Shown piece after piece: positions 12,307 through 56,486 of a stretch of DNA of 59,013 nucleotides. Origin of the DNA: a virus; the IMG/VR virus record IMGVR_UViG_3300030329_002180, positions 1-59,013 of that record. One strand, given 5' to 3'. Within the stretch, counting starts at the first letter, position 1; each line of letters opens with the position of its first letter. The translations under genes and the position numbers were made by a program. The notes under the pieces are model-generated. The model made no database searches. It was given only the letters and a program-made list of their open reading frames with translations, and was not told the origin of the DNA.

Positions 12307-13869
12307 ATGGAGTATAATCAACCAAGTCTCCTTATCAAAAATTTAGATTTTGATACGGAAGCTAAGAGTAAAATAATAGCTGGTGTTGAAAAACTAGCTA
12401 AAGCAGTAAAATCTACCTTAGGAGCGTCTGGTAAATGTGTTATTTACGAAGACGCCCGAGGTAACCCGGTGGTCACAAAAGATGGTGTAACCGTTGCAGA
12501 GAGCGTAGTCTTATACGATCCCGTGGAAAATATAGGTGCAACACTAATAAAGGAAGCTGCTAAAAACACAGTGAAAGAAGCTGGTGACGGTACTACTACC
12601 GCTACGGTATTAGCAGAAGCACTTATTAAGGAAGTTAATAACCACAATGGAATATCTATTAGACAAATAAAAGATGGTATTAATTCTTGTTTAGATAAAG
12701 TGAATGATTATTTAGACAATGTATCGATACCTGTTGACGGGAACATGTTAGAAAGTGTTAGCACTATTAGTTGTAATAACGATAGAGAACTAGGTTCTAT
12801 TATAGCCGAAGCCTATAATAAAGTTGGTAAAAATGGTGTGGTTTTAATGGAAAGCTCTGGAACAGAAAAAACATATGTTGATGTTGTTGATGGAGCAAAA
12901 ATAGAATCAGGATTAACCTCACCTCACTTTGTAACTGACACTGATAAACAAAAAGCAGAACTAGAGAAACCACTAGTACTAATCGTATCGTCAGAAATCC
13001 CAAATGTAAGAAAAATACAAAATATATTAGAGTTTGCTATTAAAAATAATAGATCTTTATTGATAGTCGCTCCAGTCTCACAACAAGTGAAAGCTGCTCT
13101 TTTAATGAATAAAGTTAAAGGTAATATAAAAATAAATATAATAGATCCACCTGGATTTGGACCTACAAAAAGAGATACTATAAAAGATTTAGCTATATTA
13201 ACTAAATCTACAGTTATAAACGAAGAGCTTGGTGATGATTTAGATTTAATATCTTTAGATGTTTTAGGAGAAGCAAAAAGATCTGTGACTGATGATAAGA
13301 GCACTATAATAACAACAGTAGATGATATAGAGGATATTGAAGAGAGAATTAAAGAAGTAAAAAAGATAAGAGATAAAGAAAAAGATCCTTTTTTTCAAAA
13401 GAAAATAGATGAAAGAATAGCTATGTTATCTGGTTCTGTTGGTATGATAAAAGTTGGTGCTAACTCTAAAGTAGAATTAAAAGAAAAAAGAGATAGAGTA
13501 GAAGACGCTATTTATGCTACAAAAGCTGCTTTACAAGAAGGTATTGTATCTGGTGGTGGAGTAGCTTTACTAAATGCTTCTCAACATATAGCTAGTACAG
13601 ATGTTGGTGAACAAATATTATTAAAAGCTATAACTTATCCTTTTAAGGTTATATTAGAAAACGCAGGTTTAAAACAAGTTGGACCAAGACCAAGTAAAGG
13701 TATTGGTGTTAATGTTGTAGATGGTAGTGATGTAAATATGATCGAACACGGTATAATAGATCCAGTGCTTGTTACCAAATCAGCGTTAAAAAACGCGGTA
13801 TCAGTTGTAAACACTATAATATCAGCTAATTGTGTAATTTCAAATATGAGAACAGATGAAAGCAATTAA
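12307..13869 (+). CDS. groL: GroEL chaperonin (phage-encoded)
   Basis: A 520-aa chaperonin subunit, close to the usual 540-550. The equatorial ATP site is intact: T-L-G-A-S-G-K near 37-43, V-T-K-D-G-V-T-V near 56-63 and A-G-D-G-T-T-T-A-T near 91-99. The R-V-E-D-A segment near 398 holds the equivalent of catalytic Asp398, and G-I-V-S-G-G-G-V-A near 411-419 follows. The Gly-Gly-Met C-terminal tail of bacterial GroEL is absent; the protein ends NMRTDESN. It would fold phage proteins in an ATP-driven ring with the co-chaperonin encoded directly after it. The gene overlap is 14 bp, and the order groEL-groES is the reverse of the bacterial operon. Confidence 0.95.
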   Translation: MEYNQPSLLIKNLDFDTEAKSKIIAGVEKLAKAVKSTLGASGKCVIYEDARGNPVVTKDGVTVAESVVLYDPVENIGATLIKEAAKNTVKEAGDGTTTATVLAEALIKEVNNHNGISIRQIKDGINSCLDKVNDYLDNVSIPVDGNMLESVSTISCNNDRELGSIIAEAYNKVGKNGVVLMESSGTEKTYVDVVDGAKIESGLTSPHFVTDTDKQKAELEKPLVLIVSSEIPNVRKIQNILEFAIKNNRSLLIVAPVSQQVKAALLMNKVKGNIKINIIDPPGFGPTKRDTIKDLAILTKSTVINEELGDDLDLISLDVLGEAKRSVTDDKSTIITTVDDIEDIEERIKEVKKIRDKEKDPFFQKKIDERIAMLSGSVGMIKVGANSKVELKEKRDRVEDAIYATKAALQEGIVSGGGVALLNASQHIASTDVGEQILLKAITYPFKVILENAGLKQVGPRPSKGIGVNVVDGSDVNMIEHGIIDPVLVTKSALKNAVSVVNTIISANCVISNMRTDESN

Positions 13870-14113
13870 TGATTACGTTATAGTATTAGATAGTAAAGAA
13901 GGTCCTAAAAAAATAGGAGGTTTAATATTAACTGAAGAATTAGATAGTGACAATAGGTATGTAAAGGCAGAAGTTGTATCTGTAGGTAATTTAGTAGAAT
14001 GTATAAAAGTTAAAGATATTATATATTACGATAAACACGCTGGACATGGTATATCTTGGAAAGATGTGCAATATAAAGTTATAAAAGGTAGAGATATTGT
14101 AATAATAGAATAA
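13856..14113 (+). CDS. groS: GroES-like co-chaperonin
   Basis: An 85-aa protein in the GroES fold: V-I-V-L-D near 8-12, then a mobile-loop-like segment P-K-K-I-G-G-L-I-L-T (17-26), equivalent to the GroES loop that docks on GroEL. A-E-V-V-S-V-G-N follows at 39-46, and the C-terminal strand reads VIKGRDIVIIE. It is shorter than bacterial GroES (about 97 aa), with a trimmed roof region. It overlaps groEL by 14 bp and the next gene by 1 bp, so the three are co-translated. It would cap the phage GroEL, or the host GroEL, to enlarge or retune the folding cage as T4 gp31 does; that is inference. Confidence 0.85.
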   Translation: MKAINDYVIVLDSKEGPKKIGGLILTEELDSDNRYVKAEVVSVGNLVECIKVKDIIYYDKHAGHGISWKDVQYKVIKGRDIVIIE

Positions 14114-14557: not shown

Positions 14558-14932
14558 ATGGCATTTAAAATGAAAAATCCTTTAGCTGAAAAAACAACAA
14601 GTAGTTTGAATTTTGGCGGTAGCGATGGGGAGCAATTAGCTCCTGGTGTTACTGTTATAAGAAAAAATTTAAGTAAAGGAATTATGGGTGAAGCTAACAA
14701 AGATGGTACTATTTTTATTTCTAAAAAAGTTGAACCCGGTTCTAGTCAGGAAACACAAATATTAACACATGAAATAAAACACATGGTTGATTTAAAAACA
14801 GGTAGATTAAGGTATGATGATTATAGTTTGACTTGGGATGGTCAAACTTATGAAAGAAATAAAGGTAAAATATATTTCGAAGGACGTTGGTTACCAGAAG
14901 GTTCGGCTGACTTCCCTTGGGAGAATCATTAA
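14558..14932 (+). CDS. 124-aa HEIKH zinc-metalloprotease-like protein
   Basis: His71-Glu72-Ile-Lys-His75 forms an H-E-x-x-H zinc site in the context I-L-T-H-E-I-K-H-M-V-D-L, as in small metallopeptidases. Upstream, the T-I-F-I-S-K-K strand is typical of the edge strand before the active helix. The C-terminal R-W-L-P-E-G-S-A-D-F-P-W-E-N-H has acidic and His residues that may supply a third ligand. The family is familiar from marine phage structural clusters but not characterised; virion maturation or envelope digestion are candidate roles. It is 1 bp from the previous gene. Confidence 0.6.
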   Translation: MAFKMKNPLAEKTTSSLNFGGSDGEQLAPGVTVIRKNLSKGIMGEANKDGTIFISKKVEPGSSQETQILTHEIKHMVDLKTGRLRYDDYSLTWDGQTYERNKGKIYFEGRWLPEGSADFPWENH

Positions 14933-40480: not shown

Positions 40481-42382
40481 ATGGCTGTAGGTAGAATAAC
40501 TAATAAAACAAAATCAGGAGATTCACCAGCTAAAATTTGGGGCGCTGTAATCGGGGCAGCTGTTGGTTTATATAATGGCTACAAAAGTAGAAAACAGCAA
40601 AAAAAGCAAATGAGAAGTTTACAAAGTCAAAGATCTGTAGATAATTCTAGACTTGAGAAAGGTAGAAAAGCTTATGAAAATATGAAGTTTACAAACCCTT
40701 ATGCTGGTTTTTCAAATCCTTATGCTGACACTCAAAACCCATATGCTGGTATGAGTAATCCTTTTTCTGGAATGCCAAACTCTTTTGCAGGTTTAAGTAA
40801 TCCTTATGAAAACGTTACTAATACTTATGCTGGTATGACTAATGCTTTTGATGGTATGACGAATGCTTATGATAACATGACTAATCCATTTTCTGGACAA
40901 AATGCTTTTGCTGGTATGACTAATGCGTTTGGTGGAGCTACAAACGCTTTTGCCGGTGCTACAAATGCTTTTGCTGGAGCACAAAATCCATATGCTCAAG
41001 TTACGAATACTTTTGCTGATCTTGATAATCCATATGCTTCGATGTCAAATTCTTATTCTGGTATAGAAAATCCTTACGCGGATGTTAGTAATTCTTTCGC
41101 TGAAACAAAAAATCCATATGCCGCTGTAAATAATCCATACGCATCGATGAAAAATCCTTATGATAATATGGAAAACACAGCTGAAGATTTAACTGTTGAT
41201 CAACAAGCGGCAGAATTTCAAACTAGACAAAACGCTCAATCTCAAGCTGACATATTAGGAAGTCTTAAAAGTAGTGCTGGTTCAACGGGTATTGCTTCTT
41301 TAGCCCAAGCTTTAGCTAATCAAAGTACAAATGCTAACGCTAAAGCCGCTGCTAATATTGCCCAACAAGAAAGTGCTAATCAAAAAGCTAAAGTAAATCA
41401 AGCTTCTAAAAACCAACAATTAGCTGCACAGGGACAAATGCAACTACAACAACTTCAAGGACAAGGACAGTTAAGATCACAAGAACTAAGAGGTCAAGGA
41501 GAGATGTTTGCTGAAAAACTTAGAGGTGAGGGAGAAATGAGAGCTGCGGAGTTAAAAGGTAAAGGTCAATGGTTAGCTGATGAGGCTGCTGCTAAAGGTG
41601 ATTTAGAAGTACAAAGATTACAGGGTCAAGGTCAATGGCTAGCTGACGAAGCTGCGGCTAAAGGAGGTATGAGAGCAGCTGAATTACAAGGTCAAGGTCA
41701 ATGGATGGCTGATCAAGCTAGAATGCAAGGTGAACAAGTTGCCGCAACACAGAGAATGCAAGGTGAGCAGTTTGCTGCAACGCAAAGAATGCAGGGTCAA
41801 CAGTATACCGATACTCAAATCATGCAAGGTCAACAATACGCGGATCAACTACAAGGACAAGCCTCTATGAATATTCAACAAATGCAAGCTCAAGGAGCAA
41901 TGAGCATACAACAACAACAAGCTCAAAGTGCTATGAATATACAACAGTTACAAGCAGCCGGTGGAATGCAAGCTCAACAATTGTATGGACAGGGACAATG
42001 GATGGCTGATGAAGCAGCCGCAAAAGGAGAGCAAGCTACAAATCAAATGATAGCCCAAGGACAGTTTATGACAAACGAGTTGATAGGTAAGGGTTATTTA
42101 TCAGCAAACGAGTTAAGAGGTAGAGGTGAAATAACTAGACAACAATATTTAGGCGCTGGAAACGAGTGGTTGCAAAACATGCAAGCAGCTAGAATTAGAG
42201 ATTTATATGGTATAGGTATGGCTAACTCTATGGCCACTAATCAAGCTATAACAGCTAATCAATCAGCACAAAATACATCAAGAGGTAATATGATAAGTGC
42301 GGTTGGTCAAGGTTTAGGTGCTTGGGCTGGTACTACTAAAGGTACCGATTGGTTAAATACCACCTTCGGGGTTAAGTGGTAA
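40481..42382 (+). CDS. 633-aa repeat-rich internal virion / ejection protein candidate
   Basis: Residues 1-37 contain DSPAK and a glycine-zipper membrane segment (I-W-G-A-V-I-G-A-A-V-G-L-Y). Residues about 72-238 are some 24 tandem heptapeptides of pattern N-(P/A/S/T)-(Y/F)-(A/S/D)-x-M/hydrophobic-(S/T/x). The rest is a long alanine/glutamine helix built of repeats such as G-Q-G-Q-W-(L/M)-A-D-E-A-A-A-K-G. The C-terminus carries G-Q-G-L-G-A-W-A-G-T. Membrane-active, helix-rich proteins in this place are usually DNA-ejection components. I recall this heptad family from marine phages, where its role is unproven. Confidence 0.65.
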   Translation: MAVGRITNKTKSGDSPAKIWGAVIGAAVGLYNGYKSRKQQKKQMRSLQSQRSVDNSRLEKGRKAYENMKFTNPYAGFSNPYADTQNPYAGMSNPFSGMPNSFAGLSNPYENVTNTYAGMTNAFDGMTNAYDNMTNPFSGQNAFAGMTNAFGGATNAFAGATNAFAGAQNPYAQVTNTFADLDNPYASMSNSYSGIENPYADVSNSFAETKNPYAAVNNPYASMKNPYDNMENTAEDLTVDQQAAEFQTRQNAQSQADILGSLKSSAGSTGIASLAQALANQSTNANAKAAANIAQQESANQKAKVNQASKNQQLAAQGQMQLQQLQGQGQLRSQELRGQGEMFAEKLRGEGEMRAAELKGKGQWLADEAAAKGDLEVQRLQGQGQWLADEAAAKGGMRAAELQGQGQWMADQARMQGEQVAATQRMQGEQFAATQRMQGQQYTDTQIMQGQQYADQLQGQASMNIQQMQAQGAMSIQQQQAQSAMNIQQLQAAGGMQAQQLYGQGQWMADEAAAKGEQATNQMIAQGQFMTNELIGKGYLSANELRGRGEITRQQYLGAGNEWLQNMQAARIRDLYGIGMANSMATNQAITANQSAQNTSRGNMISAVGQGLGAWAGTTKGTDWLNTTFGVKW

Positions 42383-42397
42383 TAAAATTAAAAAAAT

Positions 42398-43807
42398 ATG
42401 GGATATAGTACAGATAATACATTAATAAATTTAGCTTATCAATTAAGACAAAGTGAATTAGCACAACCAGAGGTTAGTAATCCTTGGGAAATTGTCGAGA
42501 AAGATATTAAAAAATGGCAAAAAAACTCTCAAGAAAGAGCAGAAAAATTTATAGATAATTTACCAGAACAATTTAATTTACAAAAAATTGAACCAAATGG
42601 TAGAAAAGCTGTAGGTGCTTGGTACAAAAATATGAGAAGTAGATATACTGACGCTGCTAATAGTACGTCTTGGTTTTCTCCTGGTAGTGATGCTTATACA
42701 GAAGGTACAGCTACATTAAATAGTTTAGAAGATGAAATGAATACTGTTTCTGGTATATTAGATAACATAAAAGTTATGAGGACTAATGCTATAGAGAATA
42801 AAGATATGTTAGCTACAGGTGTTAGTGAGGATCAAAAAGCTTTAAACAACGCGTTGATATCAGGTGAGATATTTGACGATATGGAGATAAAAAATGGTGA
42901 GGTTTATTTTAAGGTAAATGGTAAGAAAATAGCAGGATCTGAATTTAAACCTGCTAGAGTACAAGAGAACATGGCAGAAGATACTTGGAATGGTATATTA
43001 GCTGCAACTGAAGAAAACAAGCAAAAAGGTTTTAAATTTAATAAAGAATTAAACAATCAAAATATATACAAAATGTTAGAATTAGGTAATAAATCTGGTG
43101 AGAGTTTTGATATGATGTTTAGCGTTAAAAACAAAACTAAAAATGGTATATCTTTTATAGATCAATATTTAAGTGGAAATCCAGTTGATAAATGGAATAC
43201 TGAAGAAAAAATAAAAAATGATTATAGAAATTTCTTTTTTGAAAATAAAAGGGATTTTGGTGGTTTTTTAATGGAAACATTAGAACATGTTGACAACAAT
43301 ACTGATTTAGATGAAAAAACTAGACAAGCTTTGTTAAAAGAAGAAGCCAATATAAGAAAAATAAATAATGATGCAAAAAAATTAGATCTTTACAATGCTC
43401 AATTAAAAAAGCAACAAGACTTAGCTGTAGTTAATCTAGGACAAGATAAAACTTTTAGATATGGAGATAAGATAATTACTAAAAACCCAGGTAAAGATGA
43501 TGATGGATATAGTATACTATTAGACAACGGAACGCAAGTGTTTGCCACTGATATTGATGATTTAATAGCACAAATTAATCTTCCTTTAGATAGTGAAGAA
43601 TACAATAAGATAATAGAAGCACAACATATAAGAAGATACAGTGTATTTAAAAAAGCTAACTCTGATCTTGACGATGATAGTATAGAAAATTTAATCGAAA
43701 CTAGTGGTGGTGATAGAAATTTCTGGAATCAATTTACAGATTGGTGGAAAAAACCTAAAGGAGGAGGTGAGTTTAACTTTAATTCAGAAAAAAATTTAAA
43801 CGAATAA
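42398..43807 (+). CDS. 469-aa helical internal virion protein candidate
   Basis: Mostly charged helix with little sign of beta structure (K-D-I-K-K-W-Q-K-N-S-Q-E-R-A-E-K-F near 30-50; D-L-D-E-K-T-R-Q-A-L-L-K-E-E-A-N-I near 305-325). A short beta unit (F-R-Y-G-D-K-I-I-T-K-N-P-G) near 355-370 breaks this. It lies between two repeat-rich or giant probable ejection proteins, and size and helicity match internal core proteins of T7-like phages. No family is recognised, so this is inference from context. Confidence 0.55.
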   Translation: MGYSTDNTLINLAYQLRQSELAQPEVSNPWEIVEKDIKKWQKNSQERAEKFIDNLPEQFNLQKIEPNGRKAVGAWYKNMRSRYTDAANSTSWFSPGSDAYTEGTATLNSLEDEMNTVSGILDNIKVMRTNAIENKDMLATGVSEDQKALNNALISGEIFDDMEIKNGEVYFKVNGKKIAGSEFKPARVQENMAEDTWNGILAATEENKQKGFKFNKELNNQNIYKMLELGNKSGESFDMMFSVKNKTKNGISFIDQYLSGNPVDKWNTEEKIKNDYRNFFFENKRDFGGFLMETLEHVDNNTDLDEKTRQALLKEEANIRKINNDAKKLDLYNAQLKKQQDLAVVNLGQDKTFRYGDKIITKNPGKDDDGYSILLDNGTQVFATDIDDLIAQINLPLDSEEYNKIIEAQHIRRYSVFKKANSDLDDDSIENLIETSGGDRNFWNQFTDWWKKPKGGGEFNFNSEKNLNE

Positions 43808-43817
43808 AATATAATTT

Positions 43818-46800
43818 ATGAGAAGATTTAAATTATTTGGAAGAATATATAATATTCCTGAGGAAGGTGTTAAGCAATTTTTAGAAACATATCCTGATGC
43901 CGAGGAGTATTTTGGTGAATCTAGTGAAAAAGTTACTGAGGATGTAACTAAATTATCGGATGATGATGCTGTTGTTAGATTAAACTCACAATATGGTGAT
44001 CTTGGTTTTTCTTTTGAAACGGCTGGTCTTCTTTCAAATAAAGTAAAGGTTACAAATTTCGATGGTACAATAAGTGAAACTTTTGACTTTAATAATTGGA
44101 CAGACGCTGGTAGATCAAAAGTTGCGTCTGATTTAAATGATTGGATGAGTGCGAATGCTGCTCCTAATACAGATCCTAACTTTGCTCCTATATCTGGAGA
44201 ACAATTACATAAACAATCTACTTTGAACGGTGCTTTTAATATTGAAGAGAGCGCCGTTGTACATTTAAACAATTTATATAGAGATAAAGGTGTTTGGTTT
44301 GAGGAAATATCTCCAGGTAGTGACGAAGTAAGAGTTCATAAAGGTGGCAAACATTTAGATGTAAAACTACCTAATAATATATCTAATATAAACCAAGAGA
44401 ATGCTAGAGATTGGGATATTGTTGCTAGTAAGATAAGTAACTTTGCAACAGGTGTTAGTATTACACCTGTTTATGAGGGACAAATGGGTAAGTTTTCAGA
44501 ATTAATAGAGAGAAAACTAGATGAACCAGGCTTTTTAGAAAGCTTAGGTATAACAGATTGGGAATATGCTGTTAAAAGAGAAGTTAATCAAAACATAAGC
44601 AAAGAAGAAGCTAAGTACAATGTTATATTAAAAGCTTTAAAGTCGAAAGCTGGTACAGAGGGTATTTTTGGTTTTGGTTGGAATCCTAATGATGATTATA
44701 GCCAATTAAAAGAAAAAGAAATTGATAGATCTATTGAACAAGCTGTAAACAATAGATATTACGCTGCTAGAAATGCTAGATTAGTCGCCGAGTCTAATCA
44801 ATTAGCTAATTTTTTAGCAGAAAATATAGAAGAAGATGTTGATGGTAGAAAGTTTCAAGCAGCAACCATTGATGATATTCACGAGCTTTACAAACAAAAA
44901 TCAATAAAAGAGTTTTCAAAAGAAGGAAAAAAACTATTTAATCTAGTAGAAGAATGGAAAAAATTAAACCAACAACGTTTAAATGGTGTTGATGTTAAAA
45001 GAAGTGATATTCAAAAATTAGAATCACAAATAAGAACAGCTAGAAATAACTATACCAATTGGTATACAACAGCTAGTAGTTTTGTTGATAGAGATGGAAA
45101 TCCAATATCACCAGTTCAAGGTGAAAAACTAGTTGGTGGATACATGTTAACTGAAGAGGATAGAGACAACTCTAGACAAGATGTTAGTAAAAGATTACAG
45201 TTTAGCAATATAGATGAGTTGAGAGATGATATGTATGTTGATAAGTTTATTAGTGATAAAATGTATAACAAGATGGAAAAAATTGTTATAAATAATCACG
45301 AGGGTAGAAAGCTTTTAGAAAAAGCGGGTTACAGATCTTCTGGTACAACTGATTTAGGTTATATATACGAAGTTCCATTTGGATTTTTAGCAGAAAACTA
45401 TAAAGAAATAATAAAAGGAGATACAGCTTTACCAATGGAGGGTAAAAAGTTTAAATCAGATCCTGGTTATTTTGGTCTTTTTGAATTTGACAAACAACAG
45501 TCTAAACAAGGCGCTAAAGGAGATTATGGTGATATAGAAGAGTATACGGAGGGTAAAGATTTTTCACAAAGATTTAAACAATCATTAAAAACATACAAAT
45601 CAGAACGTAAAAAACTAATATCTGATTTAAACACTGTTAATGAGATGAGCTTGTTAAATATAGATCCCGCTAGTAAAATATCAGGAAAAGGCGCGGTTGT
45701 AGAAAATGTTGGTGATTTCTTTATGCACATGGGTGGTATTTTAGTAGAAAGTACTGGGAGAATATTTGATAGAGATTTTGAAATAGATGATAGAAGTAAA
45801 AGCGTTCAAGCTGAACTAGAAAAATTAAAGAATATACCTGATTACGAAATGACAGAAGCACAATTAGAAGCTTCTAAAAAAAATATGGCTTATGAGGTTG
45901 CGGAGGGAGTAACTGGTTTTGTACCTGCTATAGCGGAGTTTGCGGCTATAGAGTTTGCTACAGCTGGACTTGGTAGTCAATTCGCTTTAAGTAAGTTGGG
46001 TATGAGATTGTTAAAAACTGAAAAATCAATAAAAGCTTTTGAAAAAGCTTATGATGTAAAGCGTGGTACAAAAGAGTTTGATAAAGCTGTTAAAACTTTA
46101 GGATTAAGATCTTTAGATTCTACTAAATTAGGAAAAGTATTAATACCAACAGCTAAAGTTTTAAACGAAGAACTTAAAATGGGTATTGTAATGGGACCAG
46201 AAGATTACCATGTAGGTTCTGGTGCTGCTTTTTATGGAGTTGGACAGTTAATGCAAAGATTATTACCGAAAGCTGCTGGTAGTAGGTGGGAAGCTGTTAG
46301 AACGTTTATTAGAAACGGTAGTAGTGGTGCGATGGGTGTTAAAGCAGGAGAAGAATTACATGCTCTTATTGAAGACATGCGCGGTAATGAGTCTTATATG
46401 AAACATATAGAAGACGCGTATGGTGATATGAGTCAAGTCGGTAGAGATGCTTTAGTAGAATTTTTAGTGTTTTCTTTAGTTGGTTTTAAAGGAACTATAG
46501 ATAGTCACGGTGGTAAGTGGTTAGGATTTAGAAGCAACAGACAATTAGACACCTTGTTAACAGAATCACTAGTTAAGTCAAGAGAACTAAACACTGATAG
46601 ATTAAACATATTAAAAGGTAGAAAATTTGAAGATTTAAATCCCGGTGAGAAAAAGAAAGTAACAGATTTAGAATCAAGAATAGATAATTGGATTCAGGTT
46701 CAGAATGGTGTTATGAGAAGAATTAATATTATAAATAGAAATATTGATTTTAAAAGTAGTCCAGAGAAAGCAACAAAACAAATGAACGAAAGGTTCAATA

Positions 46801-49800
46801 CTATAATTGAAGAGATGTCTAAAATGAGAACATCTAATAAAGATGGTGAACCTATTAAATTTAAAGTTGTTAGATATAGAAAAGATGGTGATTTTAAAGA
46901 TAAAGATTCCGCAGCGGAGTTTGATGGTAAAAATACAATATGGGTAGACGCACAGAGAGCTGAATGGGGTAAAATACCACACGAGGTTAACCATGTATTT
47001 ATAAAGCAATGGTTTGGTACTGAAAAAGGAAAACTTGTAGCTGAAAAATTTAAATTAGAATTGATAGAGAATTTGAAACCTATAAAATTTAGAGGTTTTG
47101 CTAAGAAAAACGGCGAGTATATTGATAAAGATGGTAAAGTTATAGATAAAAGAACTGATTTCGAGGGAACACCCGCGCAAATAAAAGCTCAAAAAGAAGC
47201 TGCTAGAGTTTATAAAGAGTTTTCTATAGAAGATTATATATTGAATGAATATAGTAATCGTAAAGATTTTCATGATATAAAAGCTAATGAGTTTATAAGT
47301 TATACTATGGAGGCTTTAGCAGACCCAATGAATAGAGATAAGGTTCTTGGTGGTGGTATAATGACACGTATGCACCAATCATATAATCGTTTATTAGAAC
47401 GTGGTGGTGGAGGTAAAGCTAAACTTGGTGAAAATTTAAAAGGCTTAGATTTAGTTAGATTTATGTCAAATCTATCTATGGATTTAGCAGGTGGTAAAGT
47501 TACATCGAGACAATTAGAAAAGTTCAAAGAGCTACTAAGTGACCCCGTTTTAGATAATCATATTAACAAGGTTGATAAGATTGCTAAAATGAGAGAAACT
47601 GTAACTAAGAATCAGGAACCATTAAGCTCTAAAGTTAATGAGTTTAAACGACAAGAATTAATAGAAAGAAAAAATAAGCTAGAAACTACAAAGCCTAAAG
47701 ATTGGAAAGAAAGAGTAGAGAAAACTGTAAAAGAGATTTCAGAATTAAGGAAAACAGATCAATTACAAGAAGTAACAGAATCTAATAAAAAAGTATCGCT
47801 TAAAAACGACGCTTTATTAAAAGAATATAATAAAGTAAAATTAGATAAAAAAGAAACAAAAAAACTTAGTTTGGAATTAGCTAAACTAGAGGATAAAGCA
47901 AGAAGTATAGGTGAGGCTAGAAAAGAGGGTTATATAGAAGAAATTAGAAAATTAACACCACGTATAAACGAGATTAAAGAAGGTTTAAAAAAGTCAAACA
48001 AAATAAAGGAGGATATTCTACAAAACAATAAAGGTATTGTTAATAGATGGTTGTTTGGAGACCCAAAAACAAAAACACCAGGTGTTATTGATCCAGCTAA
48101 AAGTTCTCAAGCAGAATTAAAAGAAATAAAATCATCAGCAGATATTGAGGTTATGAATATAATTGATTCGTATAAACCTTCAGAAGGAGCTTTTGGTAAA
48201 TATTTAATTGGAGCTTTAAGGGGTAAAACCGGTAACCAACGTTTAGGTAATATATTGAAAAGAGCTGGTATTGATTTAGATGTCAAAATGAAAACAGTTA
48301 GTAGAGATGCTCCAGAATATAAAGAAAAAGAGGGTGAAGGTTATGACTTTGAAGCTCAAAAAGAAAAAAGAAAGAAAGAAGAAAAAGAGTTAAAAGAAGA
48401 AATAGCTGGAAAAAGAATTTTAAAAGAAGATTTTAAACTTAATGAAGAGCAGATAAGTAGAGTTGAAAGTAGACTTGAAGGTAGAGATTGGTATAAGGAA
48501 GATTTAATAACCGTAGATAACGTTGCTAAAGATATTATATCTGAAGTAATGGGTAATACTATTACTGAAAAAATAAATTGGATTACAAAAGGTGATAATT
48601 GGAAAGTAGCGTTAGATGCTGTTAGTAAACAATCGTTTTCTATAGCCAGATTAGATTTACCACATAGAGTTGGATCTAAAGGATCTGCACAAATGTCTAC
48701 AAAGTTAAAAGGAACCGTGGTTAGAGATATTATGGAACCTACAGGCGAAACCGTAAGTTTAAAAATAGAAGGTTCAACACAAAATTTACCTATACAAAGA
48801 AAAAAGACATTTACTAGAGAAAGTTTCCTTAGAGACGTACTACATGTAACTTTTGATGCTAAAGGAAAACTTGTTAGCGTTAATGCTGATTCTGCTTTAG
48901 GTAAAAAACGTAAAAAAGCATTTAACAATCTTCAATATGAAATGGGTAGAGGTTTTTCTATTCAATTAAGTAAAGATGTTATTAAAAGAGGAGAAGCTAG
49001 TGGAGATATTGTTATTAAAACAACTTTACAAGATTTAATAAATAAGGTGCAAGACGGAAAATCTCCAAATTTAGCGTCTAAATATAACGAACTAATTAAA
49101 GAAGCTCAAGAAAGAAAACCTAGTTTGTTTAGAGTTAAAAGTATATTAGGCGAAGATAGTAAAGAATATAAAAAATTAGAAAAAGATATTTTACTACAAA
49201 TATCTGATAATAAAAAGCTAGCTACAAGTATATATGAGGCTTATGATTTAACACCAGCTAAACTAGAAAAGATAGTTGTAGAGCAATATAAACGTTTTAG
49301 AAATAAGGAATTAAGAGAAGAATTAAGAAAAGCGGGGTTTGAATTAAACAAAGATGTAGCGGGTGGTAAAGATGGTTATATTAATAAACCAGAAACATTC
49401 GTTAAATTAGCTAATTATTTAAATAAAAACCTTAAATTACCTAGTACATTTTTTTATTCAATGTTGCTAGATAGTTATGGTGTTAAAAAATGGCAACCAT
49501 ATAATTCATGGGCTGGTAGAAAAATACTTAAAGAACAAGATATTTCTTGGGAAACAATAAACGAAATACATGGACAATTTTTAGGTTTATCAGGTTTTGG
49601 AACTAAAACAACAGGTGATAAAGCTGGAATTATATTGTCTAACGCTTTGAAAGATAAAATTAGAAGAACTAATAATAAAGACTTAACACCAATAGAAAAA
49701 GCTGAAGAAATAGTTAATTGGATGGAAGGTTATCTTAACGATTATGGAACCTCTATAGTTGATGCATATAAAAATAACAAGAAAGTAAGAAAAGATTTAG

Positions 49801-52800
49801 CTGGGTCTTTACATGATTACGTTTATAAAGGTGGTGATAAAAAGTTGATAAACGAAAGGTTTAATGATGTAGCTAATTTTTTAGCACAACAAACATATAT
49901 ACCTTACGGAATATGGAGAGCTACAAATCCAGTTACATCATTTACAACAATGAAAGGTAAAGTGTCCGACCAACATATCGTTCAAGTTTTAAATCAATCT
50001 GTAAACACTGTTAAAAATATTGCTAAATATAAAAGCAAAGATAAATTTATAAAAGATTTCGTATTAACTGATAAGTATTCTAATAGATCTTTTACTACTG
50101 AAAAAAATCAAAAATTAAGCGATAAATCTGGTAGAACAACTTACGAAGGCCCAATGGCTAAAGGTGTAAAACAAGAATTCCAATTAATAGTTGACCCAAA
50201 ACAATTATCTGAAAACTTTATTATTGATGTTAAAGGTAAAAAAGTAGAAATAAAAACTTGGGGTGATAGTTTGATAGAGCAATTATCTGGCAAATCTTTA
50301 GATAAACTAGGACACTTGAGTAGTAAGGATTTAAATCATTACATAAAAGAGGTTCAAGCTATTTTAGAAGGTCAAAAAACTAAAAAGAAAAAAAGAGGTA
50401 TTACTGTTTGGGATTTTGATGATACTATAGCTAGAACAAAATCAAACGTGTTATTTACAGATCCTAAAGGCAAAAAAGGTAAACTTAATGCTGAGGAGTT
50501 TGCTAAGCATGGAAAAACGTTATTAGATCAAGGTTTTAAATTTGATTTTTCTGAATTTAATAAAGTTATTGATGGTAAGAAAGGTCCGTTTTTTGACAAA
50601 GCACTAAAAAGAAATGAAAAATTTGGTAATAAAGATGTTTTTATATTAACAGCTAGACCTGGTGTTTCTGCAAATGCTATACACGAGTTTTTGAAAGGTA
50701 TTGGTTTAGAAATACCTTTAGAAAATATTAAAGGTTTAGGTAATAGCACCGCTGAAGCTAAAGCTAAATGGATGGTTGGTAAAGTTGCGGAAGGTTACAA
50801 TGATTTTTATTTTGCTGACGATGCTATAAAAAATACTAACGCGGTTAAAAATGTACTTAATCAATTCGATGTTAAATCCAAAGTTCAACTTGCTCAACAA
50901 AGCTTATCATCAAAAAGAAGTGAGAAATTTAACAAAATACTAGAAGATGTTTCTGGAATGGAAGCTAAAAAACGTTTTTCAGATGTTAAAGCTAAAATAA
51001 GAGGCTCTGCGAAAGATAAGTTTGAATTTTTTATACCATCATCTGCTGAGGACTTTGTAGGATTAATGTATAAGTTTATGGGTAAAGGTGTTAAAGGAGA
51101 AAAACATCAAGCTTGGTTTAAAAGAAATTTATTAGATCCATTTGAAAAAGGTATTTTTGATTTAAATAATGCTAAACAAAAAATAGCTACAGAATATGAT
51201 GTTTTAAAATCTCAAAATAAAGAAGCTATAAATAAATTAAAAGAAAGAGTAAAGGATAATAAGGATTTTACTTACGAACAAGCTTTACGTGTTCATTTAT
51301 TTGAGAAGGCTGGTTACGACACGCCTGGTCTATCTAAAACAGACAAAGGTAAATTGTTAGAAGCAGTAAACTCTAATCCTGATTTACTAGCATTGTCACA
51401 CACACTAAGTAAAATATCAAGAAAGAAAGAGGGTTATATAGAGCCGAAAAAAGATTGGTTAACAGGTGATATACAAACTGATTTAATGTCATTGACATCT
51501 AGAACGGCAAGAGCTAAGTATTTGAATAAATGGATAGAAAATAAAAATGAAATATTTTCACCAGAAAATTTAAACAAAATTGAAGCTATTCACGGTACTA
51601 AATATAGAGAAGCTTTAGAAGATATTTTATATAGAATGGAAACGGGTGTTAATAGAAATATTGGTAAAGATAGATTTAATTATAGGTTTTCAGAAGCAAT
51701 GTCTAATTCTGTTGGTGCTATAATGTTTGCTAACATTAGATCAGCAACTTTACAGATGTTATCTACAGTGAACTTTGTTAATTGGGGTCATAATAATATA
51801 TTTAATGTTGCTAAAACTTTTGCTAATCCAAAACAATATTGGAAAGATGTAACTATGATATTTAATTCTAATTGGGCTAAACAGAGAAGATCAGGTTTAA
51901 AAACAGATGTTAACCACGTTGAGTTGGCGGAAGCTGCTTCTTCTGGTTCAAATAAGTTTAGATCCGGTATGAAATGGTTGTTACAAAAAGGTTTTATGCC
52001 AACTCAAATAGCTGATAGTTTTGCAATAGCAACAGGTGGTGCTTCATATTATAGAAATACTGTTAAAAAATATATGAAAGAAGGTTTGACAAAGAAAAAT
52101 GCGGAGAAGAAAGCTTGGTTAGAATTCCAACACATAGCAGAAAGAACACAGCAGTCTGCTAGACCAGATTTAATATCACAACAACAAGCTTCTCCACTTG
52201 GGAGATTTATATTAGCTTTTGCTAACACACCAATGCAGTATAACAGGATTATAAAGAAGTCTTTTACAGATCTTAAAAATGGAAGAGGAGATGCTAAAGC
52301 TCATATATCTAAAATTATATATTATGGAGCTATGCAAAACTTTATATTCTCATCATTACAAGCAGGGTTGTTCACATTATTGTTTGATGATACTGATGAG
52401 AATGCTATAAAACAAAAAGAAGTTAGAATTGCTAATTCTATGTTAGACACTGTTTTAAGAGGATCTGGTTTTGCTGGAGCTGGTGTATCATCTTTAAAAA
52501 ACATGTTACTAGAATTCCACAAGCAAGAAGGCAAAGGATATAACGCAGATCACATGAGAACTGTTTTACAAGGATTAAATTTCTCACCACCTCTAGGGTC
52601 TAGAGTTAGAAAAGTGTATTCTGGATTAACAAATTATAAATACAACAAACAGCTTATAGAAGCAAGAGGATTTAATATTGATAATCCAGCTTTAAATATA
52701 ACCGGTAATGTTGTTGAGGGATTGACAAACGTACCTTTAGCTAGATTAGTTAACAAGACTAATAATGTTGTTGAAGGTTTAAGCGGTGAGCATGAAACGT

Positions 52801-53069
52801 GGCAATCGATAGCGCTTTTAATGGGTTGGAATAGATGGGATTTAGGAGTGGAAAACGAAGAAATGAAAAAATTAAGAGAACAAATAAAGATACAAAATAG
52901 ATTAAGAGGAAAAGGTAAAGCCTCTGTAACTAGAATGATTAACAAAGCAAAAAAAGAAACTAGAGTTGGTTATAGACCATATTTATATAACAACCAAATA
53001 CGTTGGGTTAGGTTAAAAGATAAAGATATTTTTGAAAGAAATTACCCAGAAGCAGAGCTTATAAAGTAA
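43818..53069 (+). CDS. 3083-aa giant polyvalent virion protein with metalloprotease- and HAD-like motifs
   Basis: At 9.25 kb this is the largest gene. The N-terminal R-F-K-L-F-G-R-I-Y-N-I-P-E-E-G-V-K-Q-F-L opens a domain typical of large internal proteins of marine podophages. A hydrophobic stretch lies near 700-730. Residues about 1053-1065 read I-P-H-E-V-N-H-V-F-I-K-Q-W, an H-E-x-x-H zinc metalloprotease site. Near 2195-2340 a HAD-like unit has D-F-D-D-T (motif I), I-L-T-A-R-P (motif II) and Y-F-A-D-D-A (motif IV). The C-terminus (about 2790-2860) has Q-Q-Q-A-S-P-L-G-R-F-I-L-A-F-A-N-T-P-M-Q-Y-N-R. It is probably injected and acts in the host; enzyme activity is inferred. Confidence 0.7.
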   Translation: MRRFKLFGRIYNIPEEGVKQFLETYPDAEEYFGESSEKVTEDVTKLSDDDAVVRLNSQYGDLGFSFETAGLLSNKVKVTNFDGTISETFDFNNWTDAGRSKVASDLNDWMSANAAPNTDPNFAPISGEQLHKQSTLNGAFNIEESAVVHLNNLYRDKGVWFEEISPGSDEVRVHKGGKHLDVKLPNNISNINQENARDWDIVASKISNFATGVSITPVYEGQMGKFSELIERKLDEPGFLESLGITDWEYAVKREVNQNISKEEAKYNVILKALKSKAGTEGIFGFGWNPNDDYSQLKEKEIDRSIEQAVNNRYYAARNARLVAESNQLANFLAENIEEDVDGRKFQAATIDDIHELYKQKSIKEFSKEGKKLFNLVEEWKKLNQQRLNGVDVKRSDIQKLESQIRTARNNYTNWYTTASSFVDRDGNPISPVQGEKLVGGYMLTEEDRDNSRQDVSKRLQFSNIDELRDDMYVDKFISDKMYNKMEKIVINNHEGRKLLEKAGYRSSGTTDLGYIYEVPFGFLAENYKEIIKGDTALPMEGKKFKSDPGYFGLFEFDKQQSKQGAKGDYGDIEEYTEGKDFSQRFKQSLKTYKSERKKLISDLNTVNEMSLLNIDPASKISGKGAVVENVGDFFMHMGGILVESTGRIFDRDFEIDDRSKSVQAELEKLKNIPDYEMTEAQLEASKKNMAYEVAEGVTGFVPAIAEFAAIEFATAGLGSQFALSKLGMRLLKTEKSIKAFEKAYDVKRGTKEFDKAVKTLGLRSLDSTKLGKVLIPTAKVLNEELKMGIVMGPEDYHVGSGAAFYGVGQLMQRLLPKAAGSRWEAVRTFIRNGSSGAMGVKAGEELHALIEDMRGNESYMKHIEDAYGDMSQVGRDALVEFLVFSLVGFKGTIDSHGGKWLGFRSNRQLDTLLTESLVKSRELNTDRLNILKGRKFEDLNPGEKKKVTDLESRIDNWIQVQNGVMRRINIINRNIDFKSSPEKATKQMNERFNTIIEEMSKMRTSNKDGEPIKFKVVRYRKDGDFKDKDSAAEFDGKNTIWVDAQRAEWGKIPHEVNHVFIKQWFGTEKGKLVAEKFKLELIENLKPIKFRGFAKKNGEYIDKDGKVIDKRTDFEGTPAQIKAQKEAARVYKEFSIEDYILNEYSNRKDFHDIKANEFISYTMEALADPMNRDKVLGGGIMTRMHQSYNRLLERGGGGKAKLGENLKGLDLVRFMSNLSMDLAGGKVTSRQLEKFKELLSDPVLDNHINKVDKIAKMRETVTKNQEPLSSKVNEFKRQELIERKNKLETTKPKDWKERVEKTVKEISELRKTDQLQEVTESNKKVSLKNDALLKEYNKVKLDKKETKKLSLELAKLEDKARSIGEARKEGYIEEIRKLTPRINEIKEGLKKSNKIKEDILQNNKGIVNRWLFGDPKTKTPGVIDPAKSSQAELKEIKSSADIEVMNIIDSYKPSEGAFGKYLIGALRGKTGNQRLGNILKRAGIDLDVKMKTVSRDAPEYKEKEGEGYDFEAQKEKRKKEEKELKEEIAGKRILKEDFKLNEEQISRVESRLEGRDWYKEDLITVDNVAKDIISEVMGNTITEKINWITKGDNWKVALDAVSKQSFSIARLDLPHRVGSKGSAQMSTKLKGTVVRDIMEPTGETVSLKIEGSTQNLPIQRKKTFTRESFLRDVLHVTFDAKGKLVSVNADSALGKKRKKAFNNLQYEMGRGFSIQLSKDVIKRGEASGDIVIKTTLQDLINKVQDGKSPNLASKYNELIKEAQERKPSLFRVKSILGEDSKEYKKLEKDILLQISDNKKLATSIYEAYDLTPAKLEKIVVEQYKRFRNKELREELRKAGFELNKDVAGGKDGYINKPETFVKLANYLNKNLKLPSTFFYSMLLDSYGVKKWQPYNSWAGRKILKEQDISWETINEIHGQFLGLSGFGTKTTGDKAGIILSNALKDKIRRTNNKDLTPIEKAEEIVNWMEGYLNDYGTSIVDAYKNNKKVRKDLAGSLHDYVYKGGDKKLINERFNDVANFLAQQTYIPYGIWRATNPVTSFTTMKGKVSDQHIVQVLNQSVNTVKNIAKYKSKDKFIKDFVLTDKYSNRSFTTEKNQKLSDKSGRTTYEGPMAKGVKQEFQLIVDPKQLSENFIIDVKGKKVEIKTWGDSLIEQLSGKSLDKLGHLSSKDLNHYIKEVQAILEGQKTKKKKRGITVWDFDDTIARTKSNVLFTDPKGKKGKLNAEEFAKHGKTLLDQGFKFDFSEFNKVIDGKKGPFFDKALKRNEKFGNKDVFILTARPGVSANAIHEFLKGIGLEIPLENIKGLGNSTAEAKAKWMVGKVAEGYNDFYFADDAIKNTNAVKNVLNQFDVKSKVQLAQQSLSSKRSEKFNKILEDVSGMEAKKRFSDVKAKIRGSAKDKFEFFIPSSAEDFVGLMYKFMGKGVKGEKHQAWFKRNLLDPFEKGIFDLNNAKQKIATEYDVLKSQNKEAINKLKERVKDNKDFTYEQALRVHLFEKAGYDTPGLSKTDKGKLLEAVNSNPDLLALSHTLSKISRKKEGYIEPKKDWLTGDIQTDLMSLTSRTARAKYLNKWIENKNEIFSPENLNKIEAIHGTKYREALEDILYRMETGVNRNIGKDRFNYRFSEAMSNSVGAIMFANIRSATLQMLSTVNFVNWGHNNIFNVAKTFANPKQYWKDVTMIFNSNWAKQRRSGLKTDVNHVELAEAASSGSNKFRSGMKWLLQKGFMPTQIADSFAIATGGASYYRNTVKKYMKEGLTKKNAEKKAWLEFQHIAERTQQSARPDLISQQQASPLGRFILAFANTPMQYNRIIKKSFTDLKNGRGDAKAHISKIIYYGAMQNFIFSSLQAGLFTLLFDDTDENAIKQKEVRIANSMLDTVLRGSGFAGAGVSSLKNMLLEFHKQEGKGYNADHMRTVLQGLNFSPPLGSRVRKVYSGLTNYKYNKQLIEARGFNIDNPALNITGNVVEGLTNVPLARLVNKTNNVVEGLSGEHETWQSIALLMGWNRWDLGVENEEMKKLREQIKIQNRLRGKGKASVTRMINKAKKETRVGYRPYLYNNQIRWVRLKDKDIFERNYPEAELIK

Positions 53070-53377: not shown

Positions 53378-53728
53378 ATGAAAAATATTGATCCTAAAAT
53401 AGCATATCTATTTGTAATTGTGTTTTGGTTAATAGTTACAACAGCTTTTGGCCAAATAGAAGTAAAACAATTTAACGCTAGTTGGAATAGCGCTAATGAT
53501 GTTGGTTGGGTTCAAAGTCTTGAAGATTGTAAAACTATAAGTTATACTGATGTCGCTAAAGACAAAGAATCTCAAAAAGAATATAAAATAGCAGTAGTAC
53601 CTACTATTATTATATTTAAAGATGGAGAAGAAGTTGCTAGATTTCAAGCTGATTTAAGTTTTAAAATGCAAGCAACAAGAGAAGAAGTACAGGAAGAAAT
53701 AAATAACCAATTAATGAGTGATTTCTAA
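53378..53728 (+). CDS. 116-aa membrane-targeted thioredoxin-fold protein lacking CxxC
   Basis: A hydrophobic N-terminus (about 9-25, A-Y-L-F-V-I-V-F-W-L-I-V-T-T-A-F-G) looks like a signal peptide or anchor. The rest reads as a thioredoxin fold: V-K-Q-F-N-A-S-W-N-S-A-N-D, helix, then I-A-V-V-P-T-I-I-I-F-K-D-G (cis-Pro75) and E-V-A-R-F-Q-A. The redox C-x-x-C that should follow W36 is replaced by N-S-A-N. It therefore cannot act as a normal thioredoxin; a binding or structural role in the periplasm is more likely. Its stop overlaps the SNase gene start by one base. Confidence 0.65.
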   Translation: MKNIDPKIAYLFVIVFWLIVTTAFGQIEVKQFNASWNSANDVGWVQSLEDCKTISYTDVAKDKESQKEYKIAVVPTIIIFKDGEEVARFQADLSFKMQATREEVQEEINNQLMSDF

Positions 53729-54096
53729 TGTATACTTATAAAATAAAATTAGATAGAGTTATTGATGGTGATACCATTGATGCTCATATTGATTTAGGAT
53801 TTGATGTGTCTATTAAAAAAAGAATTAGATTTGTTGGTATTAATACTCCAGAATCTAGAACTAGAGATTTAGAAGAAAAAGCAAGAGGTTTAGCAGCTAA
53901 AGATAGATTAAAGAATTTATTAGAAGGTGCTAATATGATACAATTAAAATCTCACGGCGTTGGAAAATATGGAAGATGTTTAGGTGAGTTACACATAGAC
54001 GTTGTTGACGGTCAAGATAAAATGACCTTAGAAAATGTAAATGAATTATTAATAAAAGAGGGCCATGCCGTAGAATATCATGGAGGTAAAAGATAA
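53728..54096 (+). CDS. thermonuclease (SNase)-like nuclease
   Basis: Staphylococcal-nuclease fold motifs are in order: V-I-D-G-D-T (D13, D15), R-F-V-G-I-N-T-P-E (R34, E42) and K-Y-G-R (R83). R34, E42 and R83 match the catalytic Arg35, Glu43 and Arg87, and D15 matches the calcium ligand Asp21. The second ligand Asp40 is Asn39 here, so metal binding may be altered. The enzyme would degrade DNA or RNA. No signal peptide is visible, so it probably acts in the cytoplasm. It is translationally coupled to the preceding gene (TAATG). Confidence 0.8.
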   Translation: MYTYKIKLDRVIDGDTIDAHIDLGFDVSIKKRIRFVGINTPESRTRDLEEKARGLAAKDRLKNLLEGANMIQLKSHGVGKYGRCLGELHIDVVDGQDKMTLENVNELLIKEGHAVEYHGGKR

Positions 54097-54186: not shown

Positions 54187-54297
54187 ATGAAACAATTATT
54201 AATTATATTATTATTATTATGTTTATCAAGTTGCTTGACAACAAAACAAACTTGTGAAAAAGAAACTAAAAAATGTTGTACAAAAAAAATAAAATGA
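54187..54297 (+). CDS. 36-aa lipoprotein (o-spanin-like candidate)
   Basis: A lipoprotein signal peptide (MKQLLIILLLLCLSSC) has an L-S-S-C lipobox with Cys16 as the lipidation site. The mature part is only 21 residues, polar and Lys/Cys-rich (LTTKQTCEKETKKCCTKK). Tiny lipoproteins near lysis genes often act as outer-membrane spanins. The stop shares its ATGA with the start of the next gene. Superinfection exclusion is the alternative role. Confidence 0.65.
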   Translation: MKQLLIILLLLCLSSCLTTKQTCEKETKKCCTKKIK

Positions 54298-56486
54298 AAA
54301 AAATAATACTATTACTATTACTACCTATAATAACTTTTGCGCAAAAAGAAGTTGTTATACATATACAAACTGATTCTTGGCCAGGAGAAACTAAATGGAC
54401 TTTGTATAAAGACGCTTATCAAGGCGATACTATAGCTTACGTTCCTTATTATCATTATAGTGCGCCAAATACAATGCACAGAGACACTGTTTATATGGCT
54501 GATAGTATTACTAATATATCATTTGTTATATATGATGGATATGGTGATGGTATTGTGAATGGTAGTTATTACGTTACTATATGTGGTGATACTGTGGTAG
54601 ATTATCCTGTATCTACATTTACAACAGGGTTAATACACAATAGAATGGTTCCTCAATGCATGCCTAATCCTCCTCCAGGTGTACCTGTTAAAATTGTTAT
54701 TAATTTAGATCAATATCAAGGCGAAACATCTTGGGATATAAAAGATACAAACGGTGTAACCTATGCTACGGGTGGTGGATATAATGTTCAACCTGATTAT
54801 GCTACAGTAATAACAAACGCTACTATCCCTAAGGGAGATTTGATATTTAATATATATGATAGCTACGGAGATGGTTTAAACGGAGCTTTATGGCAGGGAC
54901 AAGATGGTTCTTATTACGTTATTCAATGTAACGATACTTTAATATATGGTACTGATCCAGCTTTTGGATATGACACTTCACATGTATTTGTATCTGATTC
55001 TTGTCCTCCTATACTTGGTTGTACAGATGATGATTATGTAGAGTGGAATCCTTTTGCAACAGTAGATGATGGAAGTTGTCAAACACTAAAAATATTTGGT
55101 TGCTTAGATTCTACAATGTATAATTACGATCCAGGTGCCAATACAATGGAATTAATTGACACATGTACTTTTAAATTAATACTACATGATTTGATGGGTA
55201 ATGGTTGGGTTGGTTCTCATTTAAAACTAATACATCCAGATACATCATATCAATTTACACATTCAGGCGGGTTTGATGATATATATTACGTAGGATTAAC
55301 AGCTCCAGATCCAATAACATTTAGATTTCATATATCATCACAAGCTAGTTTAACCACTATAGAATGTGGATTTACTTTAATTAATCCAGAAGGTGATACT
55401 ATGATAAGTATTCAACCTCCGTTTATACAACCGTTGTTTTCTTATAATATGATTACTAATTGTGGTAATACTTGTGAAGAAAAAGTATTTGGGTGTATGG
55501 ATATATTAGCAATTAATTACGATAGTTTAGCAAACACAGATGACAGCACTTGTTATTATGGTCCTGGTTGTACTAACTCTTCTTATTTAGAATATTACAC
55601 ACAAGGTTATGTAGCTGACTATGACGACGGTAGTTGTATAACGCTAGCCGTATGGGGATGTATGGATTCTACAGCGTTTAATTATGATACATTAGCTAAT
55701 ATAGATAATGGTGGATGTGTCCCTGTTATATTAGGTTGTATGAATGAATTAGCTTTTAATTACAATCCTAATGCAAACACACCGGATACTTGCGTACCTT
55801 TAATATATGGATGTACGGATCCTACAATGTATAATTTCTGTGATACTTGTAACACGGATGACGGTAGTTGTGAGCCTTATGTTTTTGGATGTACTGATTC
55901 TACTATGTTTAACTTTAATCCATTAGCAAATGCAGATAACAACTCTTGTATTCCTTATATTTACGGTTGCACTGATCCTAGTATGCTTAATTACAACCCA
56001 CAAGCCAATACAGAAGATTTTAGTTGTATTGCTTATATTTATGGTTGTATGGATAGTACTGCTCTTAACTATGATTCAACAGCTAATACTGATAACGGTT
56101 CGTGTATCACTGTGGTTGAAGGATGTATGGACCCATCAGCTTACAACTATTCTGAGCTTGCTAATGTTAATGATAGCAGTTCTTGCTTATATAATGCTGG
56201 TTGTATCACTGGCCCAGGTGTTCCGTATTGGTTAAACGATCCTTGCTACGCTTGGGTATTATCAGTAGATGATTACTGTTGTGAAAATGAGTGGGATACA
56301 ATATGTCAAGCAACTTATAATCATTGTTTTAATGGGTGGGTCGGGCCATTATTAACAAGACAAATGGAAAGGAAAATAATAGCAATAACAGATTTACTAG
56401 GAAGACCAACAAAAGAAATAAAAAATCAACTTTTATTTTACATATATAATGATGGTACTGTTGAAAGAAAATTAATAAAAGATTAA
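54294..56486 (+). CDS. 730-aa secreted protein with Cys-repeat array and T9SS-like C-terminus
   Basis: From ATG 54294 (ATGA overlap with the lipoprotein gene) a signal peptide M-K-K-I-I-L-L-L-L-L-P-I-I-T-F-A precedes three beta domains. Two of these carry a D-x-Y-G-D-G-x-x-N/V-G calcium-site-like motif. From about residue 240 come 11 units beginning G-C-(M/T/L)-(D/N), each closed by a Cys about 20 residues later, with an A-x-N-Y-(D/N) core. The last 35 residues (I-A-I-T-D-L-L-G-R-P-T-K, then L-L-F-Y-I-Y-N-D-G-T-V-E-R-K-L) match T9SS type A sorting domains. It would be displayed on or released from the infected cell. A phage gene with this architecture suggests capture from the host. A start at 54273 is also in frame but lacks support. 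Confidence 0.8.
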   Translation: MKKIILLLLLPIITFAQKEVVIHIQTDSWPGETKWTLYKDAYQGDTIAYVPYYHYSAPNTMHRDTVYMADSITNISFVIYDGYGDGIVNGSYYVTICGDTVVDYPVSTFTTGLIHNRMVPQCMPNPPPGVPVKIVINLDQYQGETSWDIKDTNGVTYATGGGYNVQPDYATVITNATIPKGDLIFNIYDSYGDGLNGALWQGQDGSYYVIQCNDTLIYGTDPAFGYDTSHVFVSDSCPPILGCTDDDYVEWNPFATVDDGSCQTLKIFGCLDSTMYNYDPGANTMELIDTCTFKLILHDLMGNGWVGSHLKLIHPDTSYQFTHSGGFDDIYYVGLTAPDPITFRFHISSQASLTTIECGFTLINPEGDTMISIQPPFIQPLFSYNMITNCGNTCEEKVFGCMDILAINYDSLANTDDSTCYYGPGCTNSSYLEYYTQGYVADYDDGSCITLAVWGCMDSTAFNYDTLANIDNGGCVPVILGCMNELAFNYNPNANTPDTCVPLIYGCTDPTMYNFCDTCNTDDGSCEPYVFGCTDSTMFNFNPLANADNNSCIPYIYGCTDPSMLNYNPQANTEDFSCIAYIYGCMDSTALNYDSTANTDNGSCITVVEGCMDPSAYNYSELANVNDSSSCLYNAGCITGPGVPYWLNDPCYAWVLSVDDYCCENEWDTICQATYNHCFNGWVGPLLTRQMERKIIAITDLLGRPTKEIKNQLLFYIYNDGTVERKLIKD

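Follow-up and report, generated by a model that had tools for sequence, protein, structure and literature searches.

A giant, putatively ejected phage protein combining a zincin-like region with a HAD phosphatase unit of predicted Pnkp-like fold

What might a HAD phosphatase-like unit do in a virion protein? The question is raised by one gene of the 59,013-nucleotide stretch of DNA analysed here (the window), from an uncultured marine phage, which encodes a putative polyvalent ejection-type virion protein of 3083 aa (43818..53069, + strand) and is the last gene of a conserved three-gene cassette. The ORF has an ATG start and no internal stops, and its 9252 of 59013 bases (15.7% of the window) bear out the first-pass annotation, which had given about 16% to a single gene. 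In a widespread set of uncultured phages this gene is among the largest, and its HAD unit is conserved better than any other part, yet Pfam has no name for the unit. Where that annotation called the role of the unit unknown, we can narrow it: the predicted fold, weak family matches, and kinase-fused relatives point to Pnkp-like 3'-end phosphatases. We propose, giving the idea about an even chance of being right, that this giant is polyvalent, is ejected, and bears both a zincin and a Pnkp-type polynucleotide-end phosphatase, acting in counter-defence.

A zincin-like region and a HAD unit in one giant gene

The giant polypeptide contains several disparate domains (a zincin, a HAD unit, and a helical module) and lies next to structural genes, the combination by which polyvalent proteins are recognised. 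The union of zincin-type and HAD catalytic units within one giant late gene, as initially annotated, is sound as an architecture and well supported. A zincin-like metallopeptidase region at about residues 940-1230 (46635..47507, + strand, limits approximate) is marked by conservation of HExxH and a third ligand. Its HEVNH motif, seen in the sequence and the alignment, occupies residues 1055-1059 (H1055, E1056, H1059; 46980..46994, + strand), just where it had been noted, and the alignment gives E1158 (47289..47291, + strand) as the predicted third zinc ligand. In 80 aligned relatives, all but one (L007) selected for HExxH, the two histidines are conserved in 79/80 and 80/80, the intervening glutamate in 80/80, and E1158 in 78/80. 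The MPTases of polyvalent proteins are zincin-like, with HExxH and a downstream Glu in a later helix (PMC5512222); by sequence, the window giant has this pattern, E1158 included. L007 carries QEIGH instead of HEVNH and a few further giants are without HExxH, thus the zinc site appears to be dispensable or capable of being lost. A small ORF elsewhere in the window (14558-14932), with HEIKH and no Pfam match, is a possible second zinc-site protein.

The HAD phosphatase unit covers residues 2193-2362 (50394..50903, + strand), as delimited by AF2 models, VIA-align, Foldseek, and a 46-sequence alignment. The three motifs reported for it are present as DFDDT (2199-2203), ILTAR (2276-2280), and YFADD (2331-2335). 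Alignments identify motif I as DFDDT (50412..50426), with predicted nucleophile D2199 and acid/base D2201, motif II as T2278-A-R2280 (50649..50657), motif III as K2315 (50760..50762), and motif IV as D2334 D2335 (50817..50822), all on the + strand. The catalytic residues are near-invariant in 77 HADs, and in a further, more divergent set of 46 (51-65% identical to the window) D2199, D2201, T2278, R2280, K2315, D2334, and D2335 do not vary at all. For motif I, part of this constancy stems from how the relatives were collected: the peptide patterns used contain parts of the HAD motifs, and the set of 147 giants described below was filtered on motif I; HExxH and the HAD residues outside the search patterns are free of this selection effect. 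Mean pairwise identity within the unit is 64%.

Could the HAD unit be a structural or folding module of an ejection protein, its enzyme activity no longer relevant? Its position is fixed, directly before a conserved C-terminal module, and relatives tolerate flap inserts of 46-200 aa, as might be expected of such a part. However, the few positions that are near-invariant include the residues that bind metal and phosphate, and even the one relative that departs from DFDDT (L147, with DFDYT) retains D-x-D, which makes this the least probable of the readings that we weigh against an active phosphatase. The C-terminal module itself is all-helical (residues 2394-3020; 50997..52877, + strand) and co-conserved with the HAD, as judged from relative coverage, alignment, and AF2. 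Two relatives (L001 and L002) share it at 41% and have HEVLH, with the HAD absent. In another (L074), an insert of about 450 aa with no credible Pfam match separates HAD and C-terminal module and is followed by a partial repeat of a KSKVQQA-type segment. Hydrophobic segments had been claimed in the plural; a single moderately hydrophobic stretch, residues 698-720 (45909..45977, + strand), passes a mild cut in a Kyte-Doolittle scan (maximum 1.38), leaving the plural weakly supported.

How general is this architecture? A scan with the HAD alone found the unit in at least 549 IMG/VR stretches. The 80 HAD relatives fetched from IMG/VR are 58-66% identical to the window HAD, and all fetched HADs lie within long ORFs; those listed span 1431-3579 aa, some of them truncated at contig ends. 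When both scans were pooled, 147 HAD-bearing giants of at least 1900 aa were obtained; HExxH lies upstream of the HAD in 141/147, against 0.5% of composition-shuffled proteins, hence the pairing is not due to chance. The distance from HExxH to HAD has a median of 978 aa (10th-90th percentile 880-1119), and from the HAD start to the C-terminus the median is 872 aa. Coverage of the window giant by relatives is high at residues 2190-3000 and almost nil before residue 2100, except for L007, the closest relative, which aligns over the whole length at about 46-49% identity and is the only one with which the window N-terminus aligns; other full giants align to the window at about 25-30% identity. A megablast of positions 34000-58972 against deposited phages and a tblastn of the N-terminal half of the giant returned no match. 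Pfam gave nothing credible on the whole window giant, and no Pfam-A family is common to the 16 giants scanned. A GTDB scan gave just seven contigs in MAGs, 3.5-14 kb long, which we read as misbinned phage fragments and hence not as evidence of a prophage or host.

Predicted fold and family affinity of the HAD unit

The HAD was folded alone because an earlier 935-residue AF2 model gave weak Foldseek E-values. The resulting model (residues 2185-2393) has a mean pLDDT of 79.9, rising to about 90 or more across much of the core, and is predicted to be a HAD superfamily phosphatase fold with DxD, S/T, K, and DD motifs; the first-pass annotation had named a non-HAD fold at residues 2190-2370 as a result that would refute it, and the prediction there is HAD. 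With this model, the top seven VIA-align rows are all T4 Pnkp or bacterial Pnkp1 (Z 12.0-12.9, rmsd 2.3-2.6, 116-131 residues aligned), followed by Nir2 (Z 11.1), phosphoserine phosphatase (10.9), and, further down, Lem4 (9.9). Among HADs, then, the Pnkp 3'-phosphatase is the closest structural match to the model, by a small margin over unrelated HADs. Foldseek returned many HADs, none below E 0.001, including 4xru (Pnkp1/Rnl/Hen1, probability 1.00) and, among the best hits, the Legionella effector HADs Lem4 and Ceg4 (6cgk, 6aok). In a viral fold library the top matches are long uncharacterised proteins of uncultured viruses and then stand-alone phage phosphatases, several of them annotated as PNKP phosphatase.

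Family comparisons lean weakly in the same direction. The PHROGs family phrog_415 (polynucleotide kinase) matches 26/29 HAD members (best 8.5e-8), and NCBIfam TIGR01664 (DNA 3'-phosphatase) matches 7/46 HADs (best 4.8e-4), with no match for the window HAD. At E values up to 1, no match to Pfam PNK3P (PF08645) was found in 49 records, an hhalign comparison of the HAD profile with T4 PseT was weak (8%), and the profile had no match among PDB sequences. The sequence models thus give a mixed picture of family membership; the predicted fold suggests that the HAD acts like a Pnkp phosphatase. Among deposited phages, the HAD has no match except a distant stand-alone relative of 187 aa in a 462-kb phage (LR756500.1; L100:11962-12525), possibly of the ancestor type, and the literature, as far as it was covered, contains no report of the giant's HAD in virion proteins.

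HAD 5'-nucleotidases are common in phages, and the unit might instead be a nucleotidase that acts, within the first minutes of infection, on mononucleotides or nucleotide second messengers, either for nucleotide supply or to destroy an immune signal. A deoxynucleoside-5'-monophosphatase does appear in the viral fold list, at rank 50, and the weak Pfam match of the LR756500 stand-alone relative is Acid_PPase. Yet polynucleotide phosphatases give the best matches in fold and family, and the few copies that a virion carries fit signalling or repair better than bulk metabolism; we consider a nucleotidase quite unlikely. The effector HADs among the Foldseek hits bring in another option, that of an injected phosphatase acting on a host phosphoprotein or other macromolecule and not on polynucleotide ends. 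Against this stand the seven Pnkp rows above Lem4 in VIA-align and the PHROGs and NCBIfam matches, which point to polynucleotide 3'-phosphatases, but the option gains from what is found in the flap of the HAD.

An insertion slot in the flap

The approximate flap position, empty in the window, is 50469..50474 (+ strand). In relatives it is an insertion site for a P-loop kinase or an ART-like unit. The spacing between motifs I and II, normally 77 residues, is 274-279 in 19/79 second-scan loci because a P-loop kinase is inserted in the flap; with a twentieth locus, L120, which is cut by a contig end, this nested polynucleotide-kinase fusion is seen in 20 relatives (L101-L120), and L088 and L089 show the kinase insert too. 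The kinase matches the Pfam families AAA_33 and Zeta_toxin, hhalign pairs its profile with the T4 PseT kinase at 91.5%, and its best matches among solved structures are 4gp7/4jst (2.5e-5), which we take to be the C. thermocellum Pnkp kinase domain. Stand-alone relatives of the flap kinase occur in HTVC008M and Melnitz phages. Three other loci (L148, L161, and L179; for example L148:10097-10501) have a flap insert that weakly matches ART-PolyVal (0.0045-0.054) and is probably an ART by sequence, and others have inserts of about 46 aa. L121 and L133 have a kinase at another place in the giant, with an unbroken HAD.

These inserts cut both ways. A Pnkp-like role is strengthened because kinase and phosphatase are paired in relatives, and the argument is weakened because the kinase is mobile and ART inserts share its slot; the kinase may be one more passenger effector. 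If the slot holds interchangeable units (a Zeta toxin-matching kinase, a probable ART-PolyVal), then kinase and ART could likewise be macromolecule-modifying effectors beside a HAD with a macromolecular substrate. No RtcB or Rnl2-type ligase was found in 49 records, many of them fragments, which also favours that reading and disfavours an RNA repair pathway complete in itself; the ligase might come from the host, or the ends might be DNA. Weighing this against the fold and family matches, we regard a phosphatase of host macromolecules as unlikely, though the strongest competitor to a polynucleotide-end phosphatase. The flap as a kinase/ART slot is a concrete example of effector gain by polyvalent proteins.

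Delivery, proposed role, and comparison with known systems

Is the giant carried in the virion? The ejection-type neighbourhood that had been proposed for it holds up in a conserved three-gene cassette: an Ala/Gln/Arg-rich gene of 633 aa (40481..42382, + strand), a gene of 469 aa (42398..43807, + strand), and the giant. In nearly all loci listed, a short Ala/Gln/Arg-rich protein is followed by a protein mostly of 290-720 aa and then by the giant, and this synteny is that of an ejection cassette. The record of phi18:3_gp123, last gene of the corresponding block, notes 'annotation based on experimental MS/MS proteomics analysis'; the N-terminal regions of several HAD giants, L045, L061, and L036 among them, show homology to this protein (E as low as 1e-9), in which neither HAD nor HExxH was found. 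The earlier designation as a virion protein thus stands for related giants by their homology to a detected virion protein, with the window protein one step removed; from this homology we infer that the window giant, too, is packaged in the particle.

The window TerL and portal are closest to those of Caudoviricetes sp. MW202828, Flavobacterium elemo phages, Cellulophaga phages, and Maribacter phage Panino, hence the host is probably a flavobacterium. phi38:1 is listed under Pervagoviridae and phi18:3 under Pachyviridae. The window also encodes a GroEL-type chaperonin (12307-13869, Pfam Cpn60) and, after it, a short GroES-like ORF (13856-14113); phi38:1 and MW202828 likewise have annotated groEL and GroES genes. 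Other window genes include a sigma-70-like protein with regions 2 and 4 (133-891, - strand), a thioredoxin-like ORF and a staphylococcal-nuclease homologue shortly after the giant (53378-54096), and a possible surface or adhesion protein with repeated GCTD/GCMD...YN units and no Pfam match (54273-56486).

How might such a protein act? As the third and largest protein of the ejection cassette, the giant would travel in the head and enter the cell together with the DNA, its N-terminal part serving packaging and delivery. The zincin (HEVNH...E1158) might free parts of the giant by cleavage in or after the virion, or cut a host protein. The HAD, on its modelled fold, would work as an Mg-dependent Pnkp-type 3'-phosphatase, in which D2199 is phosphorylated, D2201 is the acid/base, T2278, R2280, and K2315 grip the phosphate, and D2334/D2335 bind Mg. 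Its most likely substrates would be RNA or DNA ends produced by nucleases of host defence, from which it would strip 3'-terminal (or 2',3'-cyclic) phosphates, with healing preceding phage gene expression. Catalysis, a polynucleotide substrate, and injection are what we infer for the HAD unit, and packaging, injection, and counter-defence would follow by analogy from the polyvalent-protein model. More tentatively, a large group of aquatic, mostly marine phages may package and inject a Pnkp-type end-healing enzyme that heals RNA or DNA ends left by defence nucleases before phage expression, some with a kinase nested in the phosphatase.

The window giant resembles the polyvalent proteins (Iyer et al. 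2017, PMC5512222) in being a giant multidomain protein among virion genes, in its MPTase pattern of HExxH and downstream Glu, and in the ART-like and other effector units plugged into its relatives; it differs in its HAD, as HAD/phosphatase domains are absent from the main text of that survey. Like N4-type virion RNA polymerase and T7 gp14/15/16, it is a very large third ejection protein after two smaller cassette genes, a likeness of position and size. N4 vRNAP carries an MPTase too (PMC5512222), whereas the window giant has no recognised polymerase or transglycosylase domain. phi18:3_gp123, phi38:1_gp101, and Flavobacterium elemo gp18 are likewise last genes of the structural block in related phages, with N-terminal homology to HAD giants, but neither HAD nor C-terminal module was detected in them, and HExxH is present in elemo gp18 only. 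Neither a HAD profile match nor significant homology to the C-terminal module was found in the phi18:3, phi38:1, elemo, Manatee, and Panino giants.

The T4 Pnkp (PseT) and bacterial Pnkp1 3'-phosphatases are the best structural matches, with identical D-x-D, S/T-x-R, K, and DD residues, and a T4-type kinase is fused in 20 HAD relatives. In T4 the kinase is N-terminal to the phosphatase, whereas in the relatives it is nested inside the phosphatase flap; the window HAD also differs in being without a kinase, in being missed by Pfam PNK3P, and in that no RtcB or Rnl2 ligase was found in the 49 records. T4 Pnkp is made after infection; if the giant does deliver a Pnkp-like phosphatase, its phage would by contrast bring end healing ready-packaged, as a counter-defence available at time zero.
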